Below, one piece after another: positions 1-31,511 of a stretch of DNA of 64,000 nt. A program made the translations under genes and the position numbers. The notes under the pieces were generated by a model. That model was not told where the DNA came from, did not search any database, and saw only the letters and a program-made list of their open reading frames with translations. Within the stretch, counting starts at the first letter, position 1, and each line of letters opens with the position of its first letter. This DNA is from Aurantibacter crassamenti (lineage in GTDB: Bacteria > Bacteroidota > Bacteroidia > Flavobacteriales > Flavobacteriaceae). Location: positions 1,864,126 to 1,928,125 of the forward strand of contig NZ_JAFBGM010000001.1 of NCBI RefSeq assembly GCF_016811105.1, written 5' to 3'.

Positions 1-1361
1 ACTTAAGTGATAATAAAGAAAGTGAGTATTTTGCAGAAGGTGTGGCACAATCCATACAAAGTCATTTAAACAAAATTACTGGACTAAAATTAATTTCAGA
101 AACTAGTACGGCTCAATATAGAGAAACAACGAAAACTAGTCCGCAAATTGCAACAGAACTTAATGTTTCACATTTATTGGTGGCTAGTGTTCAAGAATAC
201 GAAGATAAAGTTCGGGTCATTGTTTCATTAATTGATGCTAAAAAAGATGAACTTTTATGGTCAGATACTTATGACAGAGATCTAATAGATATTTTTAATA
301 TTCAATCAGAAATATCTAAACAAATTGCCACAGAATTAGAGGTGGTTCTTTCTCCAGCTCAAATAAGCCAAATTGAAAAGATACCTACAACCGACATCGA
401 GGCATACAACCTTTATCAAAAAGGGAAGCATTTTTTTAATATGAAGAATCACTTACATGGAAAAGGAGAAAAGAGTGTTCAGTACTTAAGAGAAGCAATT
501 GAAAAAGATCCGGAGTTTGCATTAGCACATGCAGCATTAGCAACGGTTTATTTATTCTCCGGTGAAAATTTGTATAAAGATAATTCTGTAGAACTTGTCG
601 AGAAATTAGCGTTAAGAGCATTAGCGCTAGATAGTACCATTTCTGAGGCTCATGTAGCTTTGGGCACCTTGGCTTGTATGTACGAATGGAACTGGGAAAA
701 AGCACAGAAGGAATTCCAGCATGCCATACGATTAAATCCAAATAATTCAGACGCATACATCCATTATTCACAATTTTTATATAGTGTAAAGGGTGAGCCT
801 GAAAAAGCTCGAAATTTTATAGAAAAGGCGCTACAACTAGATCCATTATCGTATGTGGGTGTTCTAAAAAGTGCTCAATATTATTTGAATGACGATAAAT
901 ATGAAAAGACCTTTGAGGAAACATCCAAATTGAAGGAAATAAACGAGCAGAATATGTATTCGTATTGGATTAATTTTCATGTCTACGACGCGCTGGGAAA
1001 TAAAAATAAAGCTATTAATGAACTAGTAACCTATTATAATTTAAATAACACAACTATTGATTCGCTGGAGTTAGCCTATGATATTAACGGATTGAAAGGG
1101 GTATATTCTTATTATACTGAAAATAACATTAAACGATATGGGCAGGTTTCGAATTTCAACGAATTTGTCTTATATGCGGATGCGCAAGCGCACGCTTACT
1201 TTGGTAATAATGAAAGAGCTTTTGAGTATCTTGAAGTTGCATTAGAAAGGCGATGCAGTTATTTATATGAAATAAAATATGATCCCAGTTTTATAAATCT
1301 TCGCTCCGAACCTCGATTTTTGAACATTCTCGATAAAATGAACTTGGGCCATTACAATTAA
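1..1361 (+). CDS. TPR protein with FlgO-like N-terminal region (5' partial)
   Basis: The reading frame is already open at base 3, so the gene begins before the window. The GTG at 42 is unlikely to be the true start, because the residues before it (SDNKESEYFAEG) match the usual beginning of this module. Roughly the first 110 visible residues resemble the FlgO/adenylate-cyclase-associated module found ahead of TPR arrays (LNVSHLLVASVQ, LLWSDTYDRDL). Several TPR units follow, including EAHVALGTLACMYEWNWEKA and DAYIHYSQFLYSVKGEPEKA. Homologues often carry an N-terminal DNA-binding or cyclase domain, which would lie outside the window. The exact role is unknown; a regulatory or scaffold function is an inference. 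Confidence 0.8.
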   Translation, partial: LSDNKESEYFAEGVAQSIQSHLNKITGLKLISETSTAQYRETTKTSPQIATELNVSHLLVASVQEYEDKVRVIVSLIDAKKDELLWSDTYDRDLIDIFNIQSEISKQIATELEVVLSPAQISQIEKIPTTDIEAYNLYQKGKHFFNMKNHLHGKGEKSVQYLREAIEKDPEFALAHAALATVYLFSGENLYKDNSVELVEKLALRALALDSTISEAHVALGTLACMYEWNWEKAQKEFQHAIRLNPNNSDAYIHYSQFLYSVKGEPEKARNFIEKALQLDPLSYVGVLKSAQYYLNDDKYEKTFEETSKLKEINEQNMYSYWINFHVYDALGNKNKAINELVTYYNLNNTTIDSLELAYDINGLKGVYSYYTENNIKRYGQVSNFNEFVLYADAQAHAYFGNNERAFEYLEVALERRCSYLYEIKYDPSFINLRSEPRFLNILDKMNLGHYN

Positions 1362-2452: not shown

Positions 2453-3508
2453 ATGCGTATAAAAGTAGCCTTAAGAAAATATATATTCCGCAAGAATAAC
2501 AAACTCTATGTGGGTGGTTTGAATATGACTATTCTAACATTATTATTCGTTGCCTGCACTTTGCTTTGGTTCTGGTTTTATGACGTATTTAAGCATAACG
2601 AAAATGATACTTCTAACATGGGTATCTACGCTATGAATTATGATGTTACACGGCTAAATGATTCAGATGAAAATAAAATAATAAAAACAGGTTTTGAGGT
2701 GTTTAGAAATACTTCAAAATATATCGGTCCTGCAAGCACGAAAACTGAAAAGACATATGCTGGCAATAATTTGTCTTGTTCAAATTGCCACTTATGGTCA
2801 GGTACAAAACCATATGCCGCTCCATTAATTGGAATTAAACAGCGGTTTCCACAGTTTCGAGGAAGAGAAAATAAGATAGGTACGATAGTAGAGCGAATCA
2901 ATGGCTGTATGGAACGTAGCATGAATGGAATTGTTCTCCCCACTGAAAGTGAAGAAATGTTGGCTTTAATAGCGTACATGAATTGGTTAAGCAGATTCGC
3001 ACCAGCTGATGGTAAAATAAAAGGTCAGGGTTTTGTTAAAATTGATATACCAGATAGAGCAGTAAATCTTATCAAAGGCAAAAAAGTGTTTAATGCAAAT
3101 TGCATTGTGTGCCATGAAAAAAATGGTCAAGGCAAATGGTTAGCGAACGGTATGGCTTATGAATTTCCACCGCTTTGGGGGAATGATTCATACAATAATG
3201 GTGCAGGAATGACTAGAGTGATTACAGCCGCACAATTTATTAAGGCCAATATGCCTTATGGTGCAACCTATGAAAATCCGGTTTTGACAGATGAGGAGGC
3301 TTACGATGTTGCGGGGTTTATAAATCAACAATCACGACCAGAAAAAGTAAATCGAAATAAAGATTTTCCTGACCTAAAGAAAAAACCAGTATCAACGCCA
3401 TACCCTCCGTATGCCGATACTTTTTCAGTGTCACAACATCAATTAGGTCCGTTTAAGCCCATTATGGAATACTATAAAAGTGAATTCAATATAGTTAAAT
3501 CTAAATAG
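2453..3508 (+). CDS. TsdA-like diheme cytochrome c (thiosulfate dehydrogenase family)
   Basis: A 351-residue protein with a hydrophobic segment at about 24-46, so it is membrane-anchored or exported. There are two haem c sites, CSNCH (109-113) and CIVCH (217-221). The stretch RENKIGTIVERINGCMERSM places Cys152 where TsdA proteins carry the cysteine that ligates haem 1. PPLWGNDSYNNGAGM and NMP (Met267) fit the second haem domain of TsdA. Family members oxidise two thiosulfate to tetrathionate or run the reverse reaction, passing electrons to other cytochromes. The direction here cannot be read from sequence. ATG 2525 (Met25) is an alternative start, but 2453 keeps a positively charged n-region. 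DsrE and TauE genes downstream support a sulfur role. Confidence 0.87.
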   Translation: MRIKVALRKYIFRKNNKLYVGGLNMTILTLLFVACTLLWFWFYDVFKHNENDTSNMGIYAMNYDVTRLNDSDENKIIKTGFEVFRNTSKYIGPASTKTEKTYAGNNLSCSNCHLWSGTKPYAAPLIGIKQRFPQFRGRENKIGTIVERINGCMERSMNGIVLPTESEEMLALIAYMNWLSRFAPADGKIKGQGFVKIDIPDRAVNLIKGKKVFNANCIVCHEKNGQGKWLANGMAYEFPPLWGNDSYNNGAGMTRVITAAQFIKANMPYGATYENPVLTDEEAYDVAGFINQQSRPEKVNRNKDFPDLKKKPVSTPYPPYADTFSVSQHQLGPFKPIMEYYKSEFNIVKSK

Positions 3509-3518
3509 GGTCGAACGT

Positions 3519-3543
3519 GAAAAAATGTCTTGTAGACTTTTTT
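3519..3543 (+). terminator. Probable weak intrinsic terminator after the cytochrome gene
   Basis: GTCT (3527-3530), loop TGT and AGAC (3534-3537) are flanked by an A-run upstream and six T downstream. The A and T runs extend the stem with one bulge. It would partly separate the cytochrome gene from the Tat-protein gene. Confidence 0.5.
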
Positions 3544-3601
3544 AGTGAAGGAGCCAGCCGGCGCGTTGGCAATACAAGCAGGAATGTTTAATACGAAATA
3601 G
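3536..3601 (+). pseudogene. Possible short coding remnant
   Basis: After a TAG at 3533, the frame reads through VKEPAGALAIQAGMFNTK to a stop at 3599-3601. The composition is protein-like and GC-rich (3551-3570) compared with the surrounding AT-rich spacer. There is no ATG start, and the downstream gene begins 26 bp later. It may be the tail of a deleted gene or chance. I do not recognise the family. Confidence 0.2.
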
Positions 3602-3627
3602 AATATTAATTAATTAAATATATACAG

Positions 3628-4308
3628 ATGAAAACAGCAAATTTAAATTCTAGAAGAAAGTTTATGGGCGCAGTGCTCATGGGTGCTACAGCTAGTACGT
3701 TGTCAATGATTACAAACCCAATGCATGCAAGCATGTCATCTTTTGATGATAAAAAGTTTGCCGCTGCAGATGACTGGTTTAAAAATATTAAAGGAAAACA
3801 TAGAATAGTTTATGATGGATCTACACCACATAACGGTTTTCCTATTATTTGGAACTGGGCTTTCTATTTGTCAAACAATGAAACTGGGGCTAGCGATGCT
3901 GAAATAACAGCGATGACAGTGCTACGACATAATGCAATTCCTTTTGCATTGAAATCAGAAGTTTGGAAAAAGTACAAATTGGGTGAGGTTTTCGGCGTAA
4001 ATGATAATGCTACCCAAGCACCTTCTTTACGAAATCCGTACTATGAACCAAAAGAAGGCGATTTTCCGATGCCTGTTATTCAAGGTATAAAAGATATGCA
4101 ACAAAGAGGAGCATTATTCTGTGTATGCAATTTGGCATTATCAGTTTATAGCGGTGTAGTTGCACAAAAAATGGGACTTGATGCAAAAGAAGTATATCAA
4201 GAATGGCTCGATGCAGTGCAACCCGGAATTCAAGTAGTACCATCAGGAGTATGGGCATTGGGCAGAGCTCAAGAAAATGGCTGTGGATACATTTTTGCCA
4301 GCAATTAA
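3628..4308 (+). CDS. Tat-exported DsrE-like protein of the sulfur cluster
   Basis: A 226-residue protein that opens with a twin-arginine signal, SRRKFMG (Arg9, Arg10), followed by a hydrophobic stretch. Tat export suggests the protein folds, and perhaps binds a cofactor, in the cytoplasm. The mature part starts with KHRIVYDGSTPHNGFPIIWN. It contains GALFCVCNLAL with a Cys165-x-Cys167 pair. It ends with PGIQVVPSGVWALGRAQENG, followed by Cys219. The order strand, Cys-containing strand, VP-GV-helix, AQ--GCGY-F resembles the DsrE/DsrF fold, and I assign it to that fold by inference. The next gene starts 18 bp after the stop, so it is probably cotranscribed. It may bind or transfer sulfane sulfur made by the cytochrome; no function is proven. 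Confidence 0.65.
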   Translation: MKTANLNSRRKFMGAVLMGATASTLSMITNPMHASMSSFDDKKFAAADDWFKNIKGKHRIVYDGSTPHNGFPIIWNWAFYLSNNETGASDAEITAMTVLRHNAIPFALKSEVWKKYKLGEVFGVNDNATQAPSLRNPYYEPKEGDFPMPVIQGIKDMQQRGALFCVCNLALSVYSGVVAQKMGLDAKEVYQEWLDAVQPGIQVVPSGVWALGRAQENGCGYIFASN

Positions 4309-4326
4309 TAATCTGAAAACAATACG

Positions 4327-4740
4327 ATGATGAAATTTATAAAGTTAGCATTGGCCTTATTTATGTTGAATATCGGTTTCGCACAAGAAAAACCGATAAA
4401 GGTTGTTTTTGACGTCACTAGTGCAAACACGGATGTACATAAATCAGCAGCGCGTCATTTACGTTTAATGTCAGAGAGCTATCCGAATTCTGAATTTGAA
4501 ATGGTGATATATAGCAGTGCTTATAAGATGGTAGATAACAATTCTTCAGCTGCAGGTGAGACGCTTCGTGATATTATTAAAAATGACAATGTCTCAATTG
4601 TAGTTTGCGAGAATACTTTAAAAAGGAATAATAAAAATAAGGCTGATTTAATTCAGGGTGTTACTACAGTTCCTGATGGTATTTACGAGATTGTTGCAAA
4701 ACAACAGTTGGGTTGGGGTTATATAAAAGAGGGCAAATAA
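4327..4740 (+). CDS. Secreted DsrE family protein
   Basis: A 137-residue protein with an N-terminal signal peptide (MMKFIKLALALFMLNIGFAQ). The rest matches the small single-domain DsrE/DsrF family: KVVFDVTS first strand, EFEMVIYSSAYKMV, NVSIVVCENTL with Cys94 at the usual conserved position, and VTTVPDGIYEIVAKQQLGWG at the end. Family members carry or transfer sulfane sulfur on the conserved cysteine, or act in small oligomers. Here the protein is likely periplasmic. It lies between the Tat protein and the TauE exporter with 18-bp gaps on both sides. The first two codons are both ATG, so the start could be one residue later. Confidence 0.82.
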   Translation: MMKFIKLALALFMLNIGFAQEKPIKVVFDVTSANTDVHKSAARHLRLMSESYPNSEFEMVIYSSAYKMVDNNSSAAGETLRDIIKNDNVSIVVCENTLKRNNKNKADLIQGVTTVPDGIYEIVAKQQLGWGYIKEGK

Positions 4741-4758
4741 TATAGCAATCCACAGCGA

Positions 4759-5565
4759 ATGGAAATCGTTCATATTTTGGGATATTTTGGCGCATTAACT
4801 ATTGGTTTAGTTTTGGGTCTATTGGGCGGAGGGGGCTCAATAATGGCTATTCCAATTTTCACCTATTTATTTCAAATTAGTCCCATAACTACAACGGCAT
4901 ATTCACTATTTGTAGTAGGTACATCCGCATCGATTGGAGCATTAAAAAATTTTAAAAATGGATTAATTGATTTTAAAGTAGCACTTGTTTTTGCGATACC
5001 TGCTTTTATCACAGTATTTATTGCACGCAGATTTGTAGTGCCGATGATTCCTGAAAATTTAGCAATAATTGGTGAATTTGTTGTGACAAAGAACATGGGT
5101 GTTATGTTACTTTTTTCAGGGTTAATGCTGGTAGCATCGCTTACAATGATTCGTAAAAAAGAAAAATTGATTAATGAAAAAACAGCGGTAAGTTATAATT
5201 ATCCCTTGTTGATTTTAGGTGGAATAATCATTGGTTTTCTGACAGGTTTAGCGGGAATAGGTGGAGGCTTTTTAATTATTCCAGTACTTGTATTTATGGT
5301 AAAACTACCAATGAAAAATGCGGTTGCAACTTCCTTGTTTATTATTGCTTTAAAATCATTAATCGGATTTTTTAGTGGTATAGAGTATTTAGAAATCAAC
5401 TGGGTATTCCTTTTGATTTTTACTTTAATTTCAAGCGCAGGTATTTTTATAGGCGTTTATCTAGCGACTTTTATTAATAGTGAAAATCTTAAAAAAGGTT
5501 TTGGTTGGTTTGTTCTTTTAATGGCTATTTGTGTCTTTTTTAAGGAGATGATTGCTTCGCTTTAG
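4759..5565 (+). CDS. TauE/SafE family anion exporter (sulfite-export type)
   Basis: A 268-residue membrane protein. The family's two repeated glycine-rich motifs are visible: GLVLGLLGGGGSIMAIPIFT near the N-terminus and GFLTGLAGIGGGFLIIPVLV near residue 165. About eight transmembrane segments are apparent. Members move sulfite, sulfonates, sulfoacetate or related anions across the inner membrane. It is the last gene of the sulfur cluster, 18 bp after the DsrE gene, so export of an oxidised sulfur product is a reasonable inference. The actual substrate is not readable from the sequence. Confidence 0.85.
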   Translation: MEIVHILGYFGALTIGLVLGLLGGGGSIMAIPIFTYLFQISPITTTAYSLFVVGTSASIGALKNFKNGLIDFKVALVFAIPAFITVFIARRFVVPMIPENLAIIGEFVVTKNMGVMLLFSGLMLVASLTMIRKKEKLINEKTAVSYNYPLLILGGIIIGFLTGLAGIGGGFLIIPVLVFMVKLPMKNAVATSLFIIALKSLIGFFSGIEYLEINWVFLLIFTLISSAGIFIGVYLATFINSENLKKGFGWFVLLMAICVFFKEMIASL

Positions 5566-5871: not shown

Positions 5872-7065
5872 ATGAACACAAAAAGTAAAGATAAAATAGA
5901 ACTCATAGAAAAATTCGAAACCATATTTGAAAACTGTGGTAAGCGAGCGGCACATTACGACGCCAATAATTTGTTTTTTCAAGAAGATTTTGATGAACTT
6001 AAAGATGCTGGGTATTTATTAATTGCGGTTCCCGAAGAATTTGGTGGCTATGGTATGTTGTTAGATGAGGTAGAACAAATCACTCGAAAATTAGCATATC
6101 ACGCAGCCCCTACAGCGCTTGCCTTAAATATGCATGTATATTGGACAGGTCTCGTTGCAGATTTATGGCGAGCTGGTGATACTTCAATTCAATGGTTATT
6201 AGAAGAAGCAGGAAAAGGTAAAGTGTTTGCTGCTGGTCATGGCGAATCTGGTAATGATTCCCCCGGAACCTATTCTACATGTAAAGCTGAAAAAGTAGAG
6301 GGCGGGTATAAATTTACAGGTCATAAAATGTTTGGTAGTTTGACTCCTGTTTGGGATTATTTAGGTTTTCATGGGCAAGATAATAGTGATCCAGAAAACC
6401 CCTTAGTTGTACATGCTTTTATGCCTAGGGATGCTAAAAATTATGAAATAAAAAAATCTTGGGATGATGTTTTAGGTATGCGCGCTACACGTTCTGATGA
6501 TACAATTTTGAATGGTGTATTTGTGCCAGATGCAATGATTGTTAGAAAACTTCCAACAGGTTTTAAAGGTATGGATGGTTTTGTGTTGGGTATATTCTGC
6601 TGGGCATTAATGGGTTTTGCAAATGTTTATTATGGTCTAGCGCAACGAGTCTTAAATATGGTTTTAGAGAAGCTTCCGCAGAAAAAATCAATTTCATTTG
6701 ATCGCCCTTCAATGGCCTATAATGGGGTGATTCAACATGATGTAGGTGAAATGGTTATGGAAATTGAGGGTATCGGTCCTCATTTAGATACTGTTGCACG
6801 TGAATGGAGTGAGGGTAAAGATTATGGTCCTGCTTGGGGCGTTAAAATAGTTGCAGCTAAATGTCGCTCTGTCGAAGGTTCTTGGAAAGTGGTAGATAAG
6901 GCAATGGATATTATGGGAGGATATGGTTTACTGCATAAAGCGGGTTTTGAGCGTATGTTCCGAGATGCACGATTGGGTAAGATTCATCCTGCGAATGCTT
7001 ATATCTCACGTGAGTTTCTAGCAAAAGCAATGTTAGGTATCGATCCAGACCTGCAGCCGAGGTAA
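5872..7065 (+). CDS. Acyl-CoA-dehydrogenase-fold flavoprotein lacking the catalytic Glu
   Basis: A 397-residue protein of the acyl-CoA dehydrogenase superfamily, with N-terminal helical domain (FDELKDAGYLLIAVPEEFGG), middle beta domain (GYKFTGHKMFGS, VLGMRATRSDD) and C-terminal helical domain (MDIMGGYGL, FERMFRDARLGKIHPANAY). In medium-chain dehydrogenases the segment after the RDA motif contains the catalytic base in a Y-E-G-T pattern. Here it reads IHPAN, so Glu is replaced by Pro373. Members with other residues here include flavin-dependent monooxygenases acting on sulfones, thiophenes or amines, as well as atypical dehydrogenases. A sulfur substrate is possible given the neighbours but is only an inference, since 306 bases separate them. 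Confidence 0.75.
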   Translation: MNTKSKDKIELIEKFETIFENCGKRAAHYDANNLFFQEDFDELKDAGYLLIAVPEEFGGYGMLLDEVEQITRKLAYHAAPTALALNMHVYWTGLVADLWRAGDTSIQWLLEEAGKGKVFAAGHGESGNDSPGTYSTCKAEKVEGGYKFTGHKMFGSLTPVWDYLGFHGQDNSDPENPLVVHAFMPRDAKNYEIKKSWDDVLGMRATRSDDTILNGVFVPDAMIVRKLPTGFKGMDGFVLGIFCWALMGFANVYYGLAQRVLNMVLEKLPQKKSISFDRPSMAYNGVIQHDVGEMVMEIEGIGPHLDTVAREWSEGKDYGPAWGVKIVAAKCRSVEGSWKVVDKAMDIMGGYGLLHKAGFERMFRDARLGKIHPANAYISREFLAKAMLGIDPDLQPR

Positions 7066-25452: not shown

Positions 25453-26157
25453 ATGGAACCAAAAAAGAATCCGGAAGCAGACCTCTCAAATAATAGTGGA
25501 ATGTATTTTGTTATAGGCTTAGCCTTAGTAATGTTAATTACATGGCGTGCTTTGGAGTGGAAAACTTATGAAGATGATACGAATTATGACATTTCTATGA
25601 ATGTTGATGATGACTTAGATGAAGAGGTTCCGATGACTGAGCAGATTAAAACGCCACCACCTCCACCACCTCCAGCAGCTCCTGAGATAATTGAAGTTGT
25701 AGAAGATGAGGTAGAAGTAGAAGAAACAGTTATTGAATCTACTGAAACTAGTCAAGAAGAAGAGATTATTGAAGTTGAAGATGTTGCTGTTGAAGAAGTT
25801 GATGAAGATTTAGATGTGCCTTTCGCAGTTATTGAAGATGTACCTGTATTTCCAGGGTGTGAAGGTGAGTCTGATAAAAGAGCTTGTTTTCAAAAAATGA
25901 TGCAGAAGCATATTGGTAAAAACTTCCGTTATCCTGAAATTGCTCAAGAAATGGGTGTTCAAGGTAGAGTAAGTGTAATGTTTACTATTCAAAAGGATGG
26001 AAGTATTGGTAACGTTAGAATGCGTGGGCCAGATAAAAACTTAGAGAAAGAAGCAGCTAGAATTATTGGTAAGCTTCCAAAAATGACTCCGGGTAAACAA
26101 AGAGGACGTGCTGTACGTGTACCATTTAGTATTCCTATTACTTTTAAATTACAATAA
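25453..26157 (+). CDS. tonB: TonB family energy transducer
   Basis: A 234-residue inner-membrane protein that transmits proton-motive energy to outer-membrane receptors. A single transmembrane segment lies at about 17-33 (MYFVIGLALVMLITWRA). A proline run (PPPPPPP, near residue 75) and an acidic Glu/Val-rich linker across the periplasm follow. The C-terminal TonB domain is clear: YPEIAQEMGVQGRVSVMFTI, GSIGNVRMRG and a final PFSIPITFKL. No ExbB or ExbD gene is adjacent. The outer-membrane receptor at 7122 is one possible client among many in the genome. A strong terminator follows. Confidence 0.9.
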   Translation: MEPKKNPEADLSNNSGMYFVIGLALVMLITWRALEWKTYEDDTNYDISMNVDDDLDEEVPMTEQIKTPPPPPPPAAPEIIEVVEDEVEVEETVIESTETSQEEEIIEVEDVAVEEVDEDLDVPFAVIEDVPVFPGCEGESDKRACFQKMMQKHIGKNFRYPEIAQEMGVQGRVSVMFTIQKDGSIGNVRMRGPDKNLEKEAARIIGKLPKMTPGKQRGRAVRVPFSIPITFKLQ

Positions 26158-26194
26158 ACTACTAACTGTTTAATCAGTTTAATAGAAAATATTG

Positions 26195-26226
26195 AAACCC
26201 TGATGTGATACACATCAGGGTTTTTT
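26195..26226 (+). terminator. Strong intrinsic terminator after tonB
   Basis: A perfect 13-bp stem, AAACCCTGATGTG (26195-26207) and its complement (26211-26223), closes a 3-base loop and runs into a T-tract. Confidence 0.92.
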
Positions 26227-26313
26227 GTTTTTACTTCTTTTATTGGTACAAAGTGCATATTCTGACATTGTACGCTATAAATTAAATACTTAGGGATAAA
26301 CATGTGTAATTGG

Positions 26314-26344
26314 TTGCAGAAAATTCAATAGGGGCGTATCTTTG
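26314..26344 (+). promoter_or_regulatory. -33/-7 promoter of the cytochrome oxidase gene cluster
   Basis: TTG (26314-26316), a 20-bp spacer and TATCTTTG (26337-26344) match the Bacteroidota promoter consensus. It is the likely start of the operon that begins with heme O synthase. Confidence 0.72.
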
Positions 26345-26363
26345 CATTTACTAAAAAGTGAAG

Positions 26364-27275
26364 ATGAAGACTGCGGTCAATACGGCTAAAACGAATACCT
26401 TATCGTTGGTTTTTTCCGATTTTAAAGAAATCACCAAAGCGAGATTAGCAATTAGCGTTGTTTTTTCTTCTATTGCTGGCTATTTTTTAGGAGCTAACGA
26501 AATTGAACTAAATTCAATTTTACTATTAGCATTTGGCGGCTACTGCATGGTAGGGGCGTCAAATGCCTTTAATCAAATTATTGAAAAAGATTTGGATGCT
26601 TTGATGAGTCGAACTAAGAATCGACCTATCCCAGCAGGTAGAATGTCTGTCAATACTGCGCTGATAATTGCAGTAATCTTAACCATCATCGGAATCATAT
26701 CCTTATATATACTGAATCCGAAGACAGCAATGTTTGGGGCAATTTCAATTTTTCTTTATACTAGTGTTTATACCCCTTTAAAGACGAAAACGCCATTATC
26801 GGTTTTCGTTGGTGCTTTTCCGGGTGCAATTCCATTTATGTTGGGTTGGGTAGCGGCAACTAATGAATTCGGAATTGAGCCGGGTACCTTATTTATGATT
26901 CAATTCTTTTGGCAATTCCCGCATTTTTGGGCTTTAGGTTGGATGTTGGATGATGATTATAAAAAAGGAGGCTTTAAAATGTTGCCAACAGGTAAAAAAG
27001 ATACCGGTACTGCTTTGCAAATAGTAATGTATACAATTTGGATGATTATTATATCAATAGTACCTGTATTAGGTATTACCGGAAGATTGCAATTGTCAAT
27101 TACTGCCGCTGTGATAGTCTTTTTATTAGGCTTGGTGATGTTGTTCTTTGCATTTCAGTTGTATAATAAGCGCGATAATAAGACGGCGCGTAAGTTGATG
27201 TTAGCCAGTGTGAGTTATATTACCTTAATGCAATTGGTGTATGTGGCTGATAAATATATAAGTTCTTTAGTTTAA
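26364..27275 (+). CDS. ctaB: Heme O synthase (protoheme IX farnesyltransferase)
   Basis: A 303-residue inner-membrane UbiA-family prenyltransferase that adds a farnesyl group to heme B, giving heme O for haem-copper oxidases. The key aspartate-rich motif is NAFNQIIEKDLDALMSRTKN followed by RPIPAGR. The second loop has DDDYKKGGFKML. About nine transmembrane segments are visible. ATG 26364 is preferred over GTG 26358 because the promoter ends only 20 bp before it. The following gene, for oxidase subunit III, starts 10 bp after the stop. Confidence 0.95.
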   Translation: MKTAVNTAKTNTLSLVFSDFKEITKARLAISVVFSSIAGYFLGANEIELNSILLLAFGGYCMVGASNAFNQIIEKDLDALMSRTKNRPIPAGRMSVNTALIIAVILTIIGIISLYILNPKTAMFGAISIFLYTSVYTPLKTKTPLSVFVGAFPGAIPFMLGWVAATNEFGIEPGTLFMIQFFWQFPHFWALGWMLDDDYKKGGFKMLPTGKKDTGTALQIVMYTIWMIIISIVPVLGITGRLQLSITAAVIVFLLGLVMLFFAFQLYNKRDNKTARKLMLASVSYITLMQLVYVADKYISSLV

Positions 27276-27285
27276 AATAGGTGAA

Positions 27286-27873
27286 GTGAGAAAAGATGTA
27301 ACACATTTAAGTTTAGAAGAAAAAAATAGCAGAGCAAAGAAAATGATGCTCTGGTTTGGTCTCGCTAGCCTGCTAATGGTTTTCGCGGGCCTCACAAGTG
27401 CCTATATTGTAAGTAGTTCACGTGATGATTGGTCGGCAGAGTTGCAATTGCCGGTTATGTTTTATATCAGTACCGCGGTTATTATTTTAAGTAGTTTTAC
27501 TTATATAATGGCCAAAAAGGCAATTGAAGCTGACAAGACAAAAGCATGTCTTAATTGGTTGCTTCTTACATTGGCTTTAGGTGTGTTATTTATTGTATTA
27601 CAATTCAATGGGTTTTCACAACTAGTCGCGCAAGGTGATTATTTTACGGGTCCATCGAGTACTATAAAATCATCATATATATATGTGCTTGCAGGGGCAC
27701 ATATTGTTCATGTTTTAGCAGGTATTATATCATTATTGGTTGTGTTGTATAATCAATTTAAAGGTAAATACGCCTCATCTGAATATTTAGGATTGTCATT
27801 AGGTGCCACTTTTTGGCATTTTCTTGACTTACTATGGCTTTATTTGGTGATGTTTATGACATTTGTTAAGTAA
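27286..27873 (+). CDS. Cytochrome c oxidase subunit III family protein (short form)
   Basis: A 195-residue protein with five transmembrane helices, like the short bacterial subunit III. Conserved parts are MMLWFGLASLLMVFAGLTSA, GAHIVHVLAGIISLL and GATFWHFLDLLWLYLVMFM, where the two histidine segments are typical of the family. It begins with GTG, 10 bp after ctaB. The catalytic subunits I and II are not in this window. A second, longer subunit III gene follows, which is the usual flavobacterial arrangement. Confidence 0.9.
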   Translation: MRKDVTHLSLEEKNSRAKKMMLWFGLASLLMVFAGLTSAYIVSSSRDDWSAELQLPVMFYISTAVIILSSFTYIMAKKAIEADKTKACLNWLLLTLALGVLFIVLQFNGFSQLVAQGDYFTGPSSTIKSSYIYVLAGAHIVHVLAGIISLLVVLYNQFKGKYASSEYLGLSLGATFWHFLDLLWLYLVMFMTFVK

Positions 27874-28111
27874 AATATCAGCTTTTAGTTAAAATCTACG
27901 GGGTGTTTTAGTAATAAATAATATAATTGACAGTTTGCATTTAGAGCTTTAATAATGTCTAAAAGTTAATAAGTCAGATTATTAATAAGAATAAATGGCA
28001 ATTATTTTCATTAAATCAGTAATTATTTGAAGTTATAAGGGAAATAAAAATTTCAAATAAATGAATAAAGATGTAAATTTGCCAACAATTAATTGACCAG
28101 ATACTTTTTAT

Positions 28112-29098
28112 ATGAATTCTACGGTAACAACGGGTACGAATGAAAAAGTTTGGGAGGGTGGAAACCAACCTCTAAATGCCAGCTACGGAAAATTGATGAT
28201 GTGGTTTTTTCTAGTTTCCGATGCATTAACTTTTTCGGGTTTTTTAGCAGCCTATGGTTTTTCAAGGTTTAAGTTTATTGAAACTTGGCCAATAGCGGAT
28301 GAGGTGTTCACACACGTTCCATTTTTTCATGGTAATTTTCCAATGTACTATGTAGCTTTTATGACCTTTATACTGATTATGTCATCGGTAACAATGGTAT
28401 TAGCTGTTGACGCTGGTCATAAGATGAAGAAAAACGCCGTTATATGGTATTTGTTATTGACCATTATCGGTGGTGCTATTTTCGTTGGATCTCAAGCATG
28501 GGAATGGGCTACTTTCATTAATGGTGATCATGGTGCTGTAGAAACAAGAGGTGGTCGTATTTTACAATTTGTAAAAGCTGATACAGGTGAAAGAGCTTCA
28601 TTATCTGATTTTGCTAAAACTATTCCGACTTCAAGAACGCAACATGAAAATAAAAACGGAATTTGGTTTTTTGATGAAGGATATCAACCAAGTTATAATT
28701 TAGAAGAAGTAGTTGCAGGTCTAAAGGCTAATCCGAATATCGTAATTCGTACCGAGTCGATTCATCAAGAAGGTGAACATATGGGTCACAAAACCGTTCT
28801 TAATCGCGAAGAATCTCTAAATAAAATAAAGGAAGGAAGATTAGTAGTAGAAGGCGCTAACTTAATTCACAATGAATACGGAAGCAGATTGTTTGCTGAT
28901 TTCTTTTTCTTCATAACAGGTTTTCATGGTTTTCACGTATTCTCTGGGGTAATTTTTAATCTAATCATATTCTTTAATGTGATTTTAGGAACCTATGAGC
29001 GCAGAGGACATTATGAGATGGTAGAAAAAGTAGGTCTCTACTGGCACTTTGTAGATTTAGTGTGGGTATTTGTATTTACATTCTTTTATCTAGTATAA
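28112..29098 (+). CDS. Cytochrome c oxidase subunit III (long form with internal insertion)
   Basis: A 328-residue protein. The N-terminal half has YGKLMMWFFLVSDALTFSGF and FPMYYVAFMTFILIMSSVTM. The C-terminal half has FFFFITGFHGFHVFSGVIFN and VGLYWHFVDLVWVFVFTFFY, both standard for subunit III. Between them lies a polar insertion of about 110 residues (roughly 135-245) that is absent from short subunit III proteins and probably faces one side of the membrane. It lies 238 bp after the short paralogue. That gap holds a TAAATTTG box at 28074, so it may have its own promoter. Confidence 0.92.
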   Translation: MNSTVTTGTNEKVWEGGNQPLNASYGKLMMWFFLVSDALTFSGFLAAYGFSRFKFIETWPIADEVFTHVPFFHGNFPMYYVAFMTFILIMSSVTMVLAVDAGHKMKKNAVIWYLLLTIIGGAIFVGSQAWEWATFINGDHGAVETRGGRILQFVKADTGERASLSDFAKTIPTSRTQHENKNGIWFFDEGYQPSYNLEEVVAGLKANPNIVIRTESIHQEGEHMGHKTVLNREESLNKIKEGRLVVEGANLIHNEYGSRLFADFFFFITGFHGFHVFSGVIFNLIIFFNVILGTYERRGHYEMVEKVGLYWHFVDLVWVFVFTFFYLV

Positions 29099-29146
29099 GT
29101 TTATTATTATTTCCACGAGAGTAGAAATTATTTAATATTATTAAGC

Positions 29147-29530
29147 ATGGCGCAAGCACACAATTTAGCAATTTTTAGAGGTCTAATTAAGTTCAAGTCT
29201 AATACACAAAAGATTTGGGGTGTACTTATATTTCTAACAATTATTACTGCAATAGAAGTTGCATTAGGTATAATTAAACCACAAGCCTTAACGCATACAT
29301 ACTTTTTAGGTATGAAGGTTTTAAATTGGATTTTCATCATATTAACATTAGTAAAAGCATATTATATTACATGGGATTTCATGCATATGCGTGATGAAAA
29401 GAGCTCATTGAGAAGATCAGTAGTTTGGACACCAATATTCTTGGTTTTTTATCTATTGCTTATTCTTTTGTTAGAAGCTGACTATATATATGAAGTTTTT
29501 AAAAATGGTTTTGTTACTTGGAATTTCTAA
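29147..29530 (+). CDS. Cytochrome c oxidase subunit IV, prokaryotic type
   Basis: A 127-residue membrane protein with three hydrophobic helices: IWGVLIFLTIITAIEVALGI, VLNWIFIILTLVKAYYITWD and SVVWTPIFLVFYLLLILLLE. The EVALG and KAYYITWDFMHMRDE motifs match the COX4_pro family. It is a small accessory subunit of the haem-copper oxidase. It ends the subunit part of the cluster and is followed by an intrinsic terminator. Confidence 0.88.
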   Translation: MAQAHNLAIFRGLIKFKSNTQKIWGVLIFLTIITAIEVALGIIKPQALTHTYFLGMKVLNWIFIILTLVKAYYITWDFMHMRDEKSSLRRSVVWTPIFLVFYLLLILLLEADYIYEVFKNGFVTWNF

Positions 29531-29559
29531 GCAAACCATTTGTTAAATTATAATATTTT

Positions 29560-29587
29560 AAGACGGCACTAAGCCGTCTTTTTTTTG
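29560..29587 (+). terminator. Intrinsic terminator after oxidase subunit IV
   Basis: AAGACGGC (29560-29567), loop ACTAA and GCCGTCTT (29573-29580) form a perfect 8-bp stem followed by six T. Confidence 0.9.
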
Positions 29588-29595
29588 CGATGTTG

Positions 29596-29603
29596 TATCT
29601 TTG
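29596..29603 (+). promoter_or_regulatory. -7 promoter element after the terminator
   Basis: TATCTTTG matches the -7 consensus and lies 15 bp before the ATG at 29619. No good -33 element is visible, since the terminator occupies that place. It suggests the SCO-containing genes form a separate transcript. Confidence 0.5.
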
Positions 29604-29618
29604 AATAGCCTTATAATT

Positions 29619-30251
29619 ATGAAAAAAGCCTTTGTTTTAATAGCATTGTTCGTTCTACCCGTGGTTATATATTTATTCTTCGCTTCAGGGGTATATAACT
29701 TTGGAAAACTACCGGTACTGACTCAAAATATTTCAAGTATTAATAAGATAGATCCAACTATTGGATTCAATGATAAAATTACGATACTCGGTTTTCTGGG
29801 TAATACTATTGAAAATAAGAAGGGTAATGCCTTTAATTTGAACCAAAAAATTTACAAAAGGTTTTATAAATTCAAAGACTTTCAATTTGTAATGATAGTG
29901 CCAGAAGGTGCTGAAGAAAAAATTACAGCCTTAAAAAAAGAATTAGGTCATCTTGTTGATATTCAAAAATGGCATTTTGTTTTTTCTAATGAAGATCAGA
30001 TTAATGATGTTTTTAGCAGCCTAGAAACTAATTTAAGCTTAGATGATGATTTAGGTACACCATATGTGTTTATTATTGATAAGGACGGTAATCTACGCGG
30101 AAGAGATGATGATGAAGATGATGGAACTAAATTTGGTTTTAATACAACTTCAGTTGCTGATTTGAATAATAAGATGGAAGATGATGTAAAAATCATTTTG
30201 GCTGAATATAGGCTCGCTTTGAAAAAGAATAATGCCGATAGAAACAAATAA
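29619..30251 (+). CDS. Membrane-anchored thioredoxin-fold-like protein of the oxidase cluster, without Cys pair
   Basis: A 210-residue protein with one N-terminal membrane segment (KKAFVLIALFVLPVVIYLFF). The rest reads like a thioredoxin-like fold: KITILGFLGNTIENKKGNAF, FVMIVPEGAEEKI, WHFVFSNEDQIN and TPYVFIIDKDGNLRGR. There is no cysteine, so it is not a redox enzyme or a CxxxC copper chaperone. An acidic stretch DDDEDDG follows. It overlaps the SCO gene by one base (TAATG), so the two are translationally coupled. ATG 29619 is preferred over the in-frame TTG 29601, which lies in the -7 element. A role in oxidase assembly is inferred from context only. Confidence 0.7.
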   Translation: MKKAFVLIALFVLPVVIYLFFASGVYNFGKLPVLTQNISSINKIDPTIGFNDKITILGFLGNTIENKKGNAFNLNQKIYKRFYKFKDFQFVMIVPEGAEEKITALKKELGHLVDIQKWHFVFSNEDQINDVFSSLETNLSLDDDLGTPYVFIIDKDGNLRGRDDDEDDGTKFGFNTTSVADLNNKMEDDVKIILAEYRLALKKNNADRNK

Positions 30252-30976
30252 TGAAGAATAAGTATAGTTATGTTTGGGTTTCATTAGTCGTATTGGTTTT
30301 TGGTATAATTTTTATACCAAAAATTGTGGATCGTATTAAAGATGGTACTGTTGTTCAGAACGATCGAATGAATGTTAAAAATGGTGATGAGCAACTATCG
30401 TTTGTAACCTTAAATGGTAAAAAAAGACGAGTGCCAGAATTTAGTTTTATTAATCAGGATAGCTTATTAGTAACTGATAAAGATTATTTAGGTAAAGTAT
30501 ACTTGGTTGAGTTTTTCTTTACTACATGTCCTTCTATTTGTCCTGTGATGACTGAAAACCTAGTTGCCTTACAAGAAGAGTTTAAGGATGAAGAAAATTT
30601 TGGTGTTGCATCATTTAGTATCAATCCAAGGTATGACCGTCCGCATGTATTAAAAGAATATGCAGAAAAATACGGAATCGTTGATTTAGATTGGAATTTA
30701 ATGACCGGTGAACAAGACGCTATTTATGTATTGGCAAATTCAGGTTTTAATATTTTTGCTGCTGAAGCAACAAATGCACCTGGAGGTTTTGAACATTCTG
30801 GTTTATTTGCTTTAGTTGATAAAAGAGGTTTTATACGTTCTAGAATGGATAAGTTTGGTAATCCTATTATCTATTATAGAGGAATGATTACCGAAGAACA
30901 AGGAGAAAATGCATCTGGTGAAACAGAACAAATCTCCATTTTAAAAGAAGATATTAAAAAATTATTTGCGGAGTAA
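30251..30976 (+). CDS. SCO1/SenC family copper chaperone
   Basis: A 241-residue protein anchored by an N-terminal helix (YVWVSLVVLVFGIIFIPKIV). It has the SCO thioredoxin fold with the copper-binding CxxxC at Cys93 and Cys97 in FFTTCPSICPVMTENL. The third ligand, His182, is in GGFEHSGLFALVD. SCO proteins deliver copper to the CuA site of oxidase subunit II. Its place directly among cytochrome oxidase genes supports that role. The DUF420 gene starts one base after its stop codon. Confidence 0.94.
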   Translation: MKNKYSYVWVSLVVLVFGIIFIPKIVDRIKDGTVVQNDRMNVKNGDEQLSFVTLNGKKRRVPEFSFINQDSLLVTDKDYLGKVYLVEFFFTTCPSICPVMTENLVALQEEFKDEENFGVASFSINPRYDRPHVLKEYAEKYGIVDLDWNLMTGEQDAIYVLANSGFNIFAAEATNAPGGFEHSGLFALVDKRGFIRSRMDKFGNPIIYYRGMITEEQGENASGETEQISILKEDIKKLFAE

Positions 30977-30977
30977 G

Positions 30978-31511
30978 ATGGATAATGAAACTTTAATTAA
31001 GGAGAAAAGATTCAATAGATACATCACTATTGTATCAATTGTGATTCCTGCTGTTGTTGTATTATTGTTTAAAGTAAAGCTTCCTAATGTAGAGCCATTA
31101 CGATTTCTTCCTCCAATATATGCATCAATAAATGGTATTACCGCTGTATTATTAATCGTTGCTGTTTGGGCCATTAAAAATGGCAAACGAGAATTGCATC
31201 AAAAATTAATGACTACTTGTATTGCTTTGTCATTGGCGTTTTTGGTAATGTATGTGGCGTATCATATGACCTCTGAATCTACTGCCTTTGGTGGTACTGG
31301 TACAATTAAATATATTTATTATTTTATTTTAATTTCGCATATTTTTCTTTCTATAGTTATTATTCCTTTAGTATTAAAAACATATGCTAGAGCCTATTTA
31401 AAGAAGTTTGAACAACATAGAAAACTGGCAAGAATTACTTTTCCAATCTGGTTATATGTTGCTGTTACCGGTGTTATAGTGTACTTAATGATATCTCCTT
31501 ATTATGTTTAA
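30978..31511 (+). CDS. DUF420 family membrane protein of the oxidase cluster
   Basis: A 177-residue membrane protein with about five helices. FLPPIYASINGITAVLLIVA, HQKLMTTCIALSLAFLVMYV, HLMT-like histidine positions such as YHMTSEST and HIFLSIVIIPLVLKTYARAY fit DUF420, which is usually found beside SCO genes and may help copper or haem insertion. ATG 30978 is chosen because it lies one base after the SCO stop, whereas TTG 30966 would overlap it. The next gene overlaps its last eight bases. Confidence 0.85.
   Translation: MDNETLIKEKRFNRYITIVSIVIPAVVVLLFKVKLPNVEPLRFLPPIYASINGITAVLLIVAVWAIKNGKRELHQKLMTTCIALSLAFLVMYVAYHMTSESTAFGGTGTIKYIYYFILISHIFLSIVIIPLVLKTYARAYLKKFEQHRKLARITFPIWLYVAVTGVIVYLMISPYYV

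Follow-up and report, generated by a model that had tools for sequence, protein, structure and literature searches.

Exported DsrE-fold proteins encoded beside a TsdA-type cytochrome in Aurantibacter crassamenti and other bacteria: candidate sulfur carriers

A 64,000-nucleotide stretch of the marine flavobacterium Aurantibacter crassamenti (assembly GCF_016811105.1, contig NZ_JAFBGM010000001.1, positions 1,864,126 to 1,928,125 of the forward strand; hereafter the window) contains at 2453-5565 four open reading frames (ORFs) head to tail on the + strand, for a TsdA-like dihaem cytochrome, a protein with a twin-arginine translocation (Tat) signal, an exported DsrE protein and a TauE exporter, here called tsdA, tat, dsrE and tauE. 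A sequence-only reading had placed these genes correctly and proposed that they form a distinct periplasmic sulfur-handling system, which raises the question of what exported DsrE proteins do beside a TsdA. The association proved conserved and different from Sox; for its mechanism we propose, with a probability of about one half, that the two exported proteins act as single-cysteine carriers of thiosulfonate or sulfane sulfur and exchange with TsdA in the manner of SoxYZ with SoxAX.

The cytochrome and its two exported partners

In searches of the PDB the cytochrome matched TsdA structures (4wqc, E=3e-45; 4wq7, 2e-44) and the TsdBA fusion 5lo9 (3e-37), and it carries the Pfam domains PF21342 (SoxA/TsdA domain) and PF00034. 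Haem 1 is assigned to C109xxCH113 with Cys152, the haem-ligand cysteine already noticed in the sequence-only reading, as distal ligand, and haem 2 to C217xxCH221 with Met267. Both CxxCH motifs, Cys152, R138, R148, S156, R255, G252, N266 and M267 are invariant in 56 relatives. Read off the 4wqc alignment, R138, R148, S156 and R255 correspond to R109, R119, S127 and R224 (precursor numbering) of A. vinosum TsdA, in which these four catalytic residues and the haem ligands are known (PMC4423706). By every sequence criterion the cytochrome is a TsdA; an identity as SoxA was rejected (only 24 bits to SoxA in the PDB, and 49 bits on TIGR04484 against a cut-off of 110). With the TsdA proteins of A. 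vinosum and C. jejuni and the TsdBA of Marichromatium it shares the dihaem layout, the Cys-ligated haem 1, the four catalytic residues and the His/Met coordination of haem 2, with N266-M267 arranged as in C. jejuni. It differs from them in a conserved C-terminal extension (about residues 298-351) and in having two exported DsrE-fold partners instead of a TsdB cytochrome.

The smaller of these partners has an N-terminal hydrophobic signal and a DsrE domain that scores exactly at the gathering cut-off of PF02635 (22.7 bits for both), with a match to PDB entry 2pd2 at E=9e-11, in agreement with its earlier description as an exported DsrE-like neighbour of TsdA. Its AlphaFold model (predicted local distance difference test, pLDDT, 95) superimposes with Z 19 on 1l1s (MTH1491) and 2pd2 (ST0148) and 13.9 on DsrEFH (2hy5_C), and Cys94 is kept in 62/62 relatives.

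For the Tat protein, previously called Tat-DsrE-like, export and, by model, the DsrE fold held up, but it is not an anonymous DsrE but a remote homologue of a thiosulfate dehydrogenase (TSD). The signal reads S-R-R-K-F-M; across 81 relatives R9, R10 and F12 are each present in at least 90%, and TIGR01409 matches 51. Cys167 is invariant in all 81, and Cys165 and Cys219 are each found in 80. No Pfam domain, DsrE included, was detected beyond the Tat signal, and a profile search of the PDB with the family gave chance matches only, to YoeB. The AlphaFold model (pLDDT 86) superimposes on 2pd2 with Z 13.3 (root mean square deviation 1.6 over 107 residues), on 1l1s with Z 12.2 and on DsrEFH with Z 10.2, with a Foldseek probability of 1.00 for both 1l1s and 2pd2; matches to chains of other types (Z about 4.5) were disregarded.

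All 81 relatives also match the NCBIfam model NF052225, 'thiosulfate dehydrogenase' (best E 9.7e-11), at 16-41 bits where proteins were scored individually (the window protein reaches 15.8, one relative about 41) against a cut-off of 300, which by sequence makes the Tat protein a distant homologue of this family, short of membership. We infer that NF052225 represents the family of AFE_0042, the cofactor-free TSD of A. ferrooxidans, because AFE_0042 carries a Tat signal (PMC2754497), has a size of about 25 kDa and has a gene that accompanies sbp and doxDA (PMC6335251), and because the Acetobacter member of NF052225 (371 bits) and its close homologues in Kozakia and Gluconobacter adjoin genes for a substrate-binding protein (SBP) and DoxD. 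AFE_0042 resembles the Tat protein in Tat export, size, homology over the C-terminal half and one invariant cysteine, and its family members likewise cluster with TsdA in Proteobacteria; the Bacteroidota proteins differ in lying far below the equivalog cut-off, in the additional Cys165 and Cys219, and in that no DoxDA or SBP neighbours were seen at Bacteroidota loci.

In a profile alignment Cys167 falls on Cys94 of the window's DsrE (hhalign, E=1.2e-5), and the same column holds a cysteine in four proteobacterial TSDs by sequence-based comparison. The predicted fold of the Tat protein and its invariant Cys167 together indicate that the TSD family is DsrE-like. Both partners share fold and active cysteine with DsrE/TusBCD, M. 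cuprina DsrE3A, ST0148 and MTH1491, but export and linkage to TsdA set them apart from the characterised members, which reside in the cytoplasm and are associated with TusA, Hdr or Dsr.

The fourth protein belongs to the TauE/SafE exporter family, as had been assigned (PF01925, E=2.3e-38; 132.7 bits, gathering cut-off 32.6).

Association with TsdA in two phyla

The module is almost certainly conserved. The trio tsdA-tat-dsrE was intact in all six Tat-bearing genomes of the first search for relatives, at protein identities of 47-89%, and in the majority of 80 further loci with a member of the Tat family. Among these 80, TsdA lay in the fetched neighbourhood of 57, nearly always adjacent, DsrE in that of 61 and TauE in that of 19, with no further neighbour family in more than 12. 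The conserved unit is thus tsdA-tat-dsrE with TauE as an optional member, which narrows the four-gene module first proposed.

For a wider survey, 395 genomes of Bacteroidia, the class of the window, were sampled, with the tat gene in 15, TsdA in 92 and exported DsrE in 47. TsdA was present in 15/15 genomes with Tat (p=1.3e-10) and in 44/47 with exported DsrE (p=7e-29), both p values ignoring kinship; lack of co-occurrence beyond the immediate lineage had been named in advance as grounds for abandoning the idea, and it was not observed. DsrE lies within 6 kb of TsdA in 34 genomes, always on the same strand and mostly without Tat. Seven of the 15 tat genes adjoin TsdA, in three different arrangements, and where tat is unlinked TsdA occurs elsewhere in the same genome (18/18 genomes examined). 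On the TsdA tree the Tat-linked label takes about six changes, at least three of them forced by well-supported branches; the labels were assigned with a loose Tat threshold, so that single rows are unsure. Applied to 99 genomes of the phylum, NF052225 itself gave one weak partial match, this single model being too far removed from the proteins of Bacteroidota. A metagenome-assembled genome named Chlorobiota (contig JAADHG010000203.1) contains a trio of flavobacterial type in which DsrE occurs twice, by transfer or through a binning error.

The window's Tat protein had no match on plasmids (tblastn); Proteobacteria were reached by a plasmid search with a Tat relative closer to the TSD family. 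TSDs found in Bradyrhizobium, Bosea and Acetobacter score 371-421 bits on NF052225. Of 14 non-identical TSD loci, eight have TsdA no more than about 4 kb away (two in Bradyrhizobium, two in Paraburkholderia fungorum, and one each in Bosea, Methylobacterium, Caballeronia and Burkholderia stagnalis), three have an adjoining DoxD gene, and at the other three neither was seen; the loci near TsdA or DoxD are on alpha- and betaproteobacterial plasmids. TsdA is present in 53 of 72,556 plasmid records compared with 15 of 24 TSD records (7 of 12 genera), the records being redundant. In P. fungorum the gene order is TauE-DsbC-DsrE-TlpA-SBP-TSD-SBP-cytochrome-TsdA, and the Bosea cluster includes SoxB-like and other oxidative genes, among them an annotated sulfur dioxygenase. 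On Bradyrhizobium, Bosea and Paraburkholderia plasmids, TSD-type Tat proteins that sit with TsdA, SoxB-like or TauE genes are annotated, misleadingly, as 'transcriptional initiation protein Tat' or 'hypothetical protein'.

The arrangement is not a standard Sox system nor, although no search for DsrAB or sHdr genes was made in the genome, a Dsr one, as had been stated. SoxY was found in none of 42 TsdA-bearing Bacteroidota genomes, the window's included, by a search that detected the positive control Paracoccus versutus. The window's genome gave no SoxB-like match at 1e-60, its best match to TIGR04486 (SoxB) being a 307-residue frame with 85 bits (cut-off 550). In many Bacteroidota without Tat, the TsdA-DsrE pair lies within a larger cluster together with a SoxB-like metallophosphatase (245-273 bits on TIGR04486), an OprD-like porin, rhodaneses, two YeeE/YedE half-transporters, a metallo-beta-lactamase (MBL)-rhodanese protein of dioxygenase type and, sometimes, TauE, Crp and Usp. 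SoxB-like genes occur in 54 genomes, 51 of them with TsdA (p=7e-35). Strict mutual exclusion of Tat and SoxB-like genes was rejected, the latter being present in 4/15 TsdA genomes with Tat and 47/77 without (p=0.02, kinship ignored); their avoidance is a tendency only. The co-occurrence of TsdA and SoxB in Bacteroidetes was reported earlier, in work that does not mention DsrE (PMC7608252). The Erythrobacter flavus 21-3 route of that report is alike in joining TsdA with a SoxB-like protein, and unlike in that DsrE plays no stated part.

A carrier role and its alternatives

A role of the module in thiosulfate or tetrathionate metabolism is very probable. TsdA works through a Cys-S-thiosulfonate, and SoxAX is thought to do likewise before passing the group to SoxYZ (PMC4423706); M. 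cuprina DsrE3A acquires a thiosulfonate on its cysteine from tetrathionate (PMC4175335). By analogy, the window's TsdA would interconvert two thiosulfates and tetrathionate via a thiosulfonate on haem-ligating Cys152, as shown in homologues, and Cys167 of the Tat protein and Cys94 of DsrE would accept the -S-SO3 group, whether from the TsdA Cys-thiosulfonate, which they would resolve, or from tetrathionate, with which they would react. The carriers would then hand on thiosulfonate or sulfane sulfur, taking the part of SoxYZ toward SoxAX. In clusters that join TsdA with a SoxB-like protein, the latter may hydrolyse the sulfone off the carrier, and the sulfane sulfur left behind would go to rhodanese, YeeE-type import and oxidation. 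The window's lineage has no SoxB; there the Tat protein may take over this step, or the pathway may stop at tetrathionate. The anion exported by TauE would be sulfite or a related one. The likeness to Sox lies in a Cys-ligated cytochrome of the SoxA family, a putative periplasmic cysteine carrier and, in many Bacteroidota clusters, a SoxB-like protein; the differences are the lack of SoxY, a carrier that would have the DsrE fold, and a genome without a SoxB-like gene in the case of the window.

That the cysteine occupies the same aligned position in both DsrE-fold partners was counted in favour of carriage, as were the invariant TsdA residues, the genetic association with TsdA in Bacteroidota and Proteobacteria, the absence of SoxY and the thiosulfonate chemistry known from TsdA and DsrE3A. 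Several points weigh against it. The haem-2 pocket matches that of C. jejuni TsdA, an enzyme that leans to tetrathionate reduction (PMC5146829). Neither Tat nor DsrE can be needed by every TsdA, because 77/92 and 48/92 TsdA genomes, respectively, are without them. The window's Tat protein scores low on NF052225, and its residues away from the cysteine mostly differ from those of proteobacterial TSDs. The A. ferrooxidans TSD, moreover, is reported as an enzyme in its own right that forms tetrathionate (PMC6335251).

The main rivals of the carrier proposal are a reductive direction and two dehydrogenases in parallel. Since a haem 2 of the C. jejuni type belongs to a tetrathionate reductase in vivo (PMC6879331, PMC5146829), the direction of TsdA is not readable from sequence, and all 90 haem-2 motifs read among the fetched loci have this N-M arrangement. 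TsdA might accordingly reduce tetrathionate or other S-thiosulfonates in a detoxifying module, the DsrE proteins binding or reducing the products and TauE removing sulfite. We consider this rather unlikely: the wider Bacteroidota clusters and that of Bosea hold oxidative genes (SoxB-like, MBL and rhodanese proteins, YeeE-type transporters, and the annotated dioxygenase of Bosea), and SoxB-like genes beside the same type of TsdA indicate that it is not bound to reductive contexts. The tetrathionate-forming activity reported for the A. ferrooxidans TSD would also fit a Tat protein that makes tetrathionate independently of TsdA, with DsrE merely scavenging sulfane sulfur. To this reading, which we regard as unlikely and slightly more so than a reductive module, the genome counts are a poor fit, as a gene never found without TsdA in the genomes surveyed, linked or unlinked, looks more like a dependent partner; a single conserved cysteine on a predicted DsrE fold offers no obvious redox cofactor; and the TSD, for which neither horse cytochrome c nor ubiquinone serves as electron acceptor (PMC6335251), would need some partner. 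Very improbable is mere inheritance of neighbours with no common pathway. The trio has indeed been passed on as a block in the window's own clade, but Tat-TsdA adjacency changes repeatedly on the TsdA tree (with its partly loose labels), occurs in three gene orders and in Proteobacteria, and persists while the remaining neighbours are not conserved.

A broader form of the carrier proposal, which we advance tentatively and with somewhat less confidence, holds that exported DsrE-fold proteins, the A. ferrooxidans-type TSD included, are not independent enzymes but carry substrate on a single cysteine for a redox partner, which would be TsdA or, in acidophiles, DoxDA. If so, it would explain thiosulfate oxidation by a protein with no reported cofactor, and a SoxYZ-like system of a different fold would extend across Bacteroidota and Pseudomonadota.

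Every protein of the module belongs to, or distantly resembles, a known family. Three points are new: TSD-type proteins are linked to TsdA in more than one phylum, the TSD family has a predicted DsrE fold, and exported DsrE is a Bacteroidota-wide partner of TsdA in genomes without SoxY; no description of the TSD-TsdA link, the fold or the exported DsrE partner was found in the open-access literature, subscription papers being outside the search. TsdA and the A. ferrooxidans TSD have been treated as unrelated enzymes for one reaction, and we find genes for the two, or for homologues of them, side by side in two phyla. This proximity and the DsrE-like nature of the TSD family make testable how the TSD oxidises thiosulfate, and provide TsdA-bearing heterotrophs lacking SoxYZ with a candidate sulfur carrier, which bears on how thiosulfate and tetrathionate are turned over in marine sediments.

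Layout and surroundings of the locus

The source genome (4.52 Mb, 99.7% complete) is close to Kriegella, Pricia and Maribacter. The genes had been described as separated by short gaps, which is true of the second and third (18 bp each), but not of the first: between tsdA and tat (3509-3627) lie 119 bp, of a sequence unique within the genome, compared with 6 bp in the nearest relative, Kriegella sp. EG-1.

Table 1. Genes of the module and the adjoining upstream gene (window coordinates)
Feature	Position	Strand	Basis
tsdA, N-terminally anchored dihaem c-type cytochrome, TsdA family, 351 aa	2453..3508	+	PDB TsdA matches, PF21342, PF00034, invariant ligands
tat, Tat-exported protein of predicted DsrE fold, distant A. 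ferrooxidans-type TSD homologue, 226 aa	3628..4308	+	NF052225 matches of relatives, predicted fold, Cys counts
dsrE, Sec-type signal and DsrE domain, single invariant Cys94, 137 aa	4327..4740	+	PF02635, PDB 2pd2, AlphaFold model
tauE, TauE/SafE family membrane exporter, optional member, 268 aa	4759..5565	+	PF01925
AraC-type helix-turn-helix and tetratricopeptide repeat protein, 3' part only (frame opens before window start)	1..1361	+	sequence

The AraC-type protein upstream is a possible regulator of the cluster; in other genomes a hybrid two-component (HTCS) regulator, or an SCO4226-like protein and an AraC regulator, lie upstream. Downstream, at 5872-7065, lies an acyl-CoA dehydrogenase-like gene; such a gene comes after the cluster at five loci of relatives (Kriegella, Pricia, Ulvibacterium and others) and not elsewhere. 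About 20 kb downstream, at 25453-31511, ORFs judged by eye resemble a block for cytochrome oxidase and haem biosynthesis.

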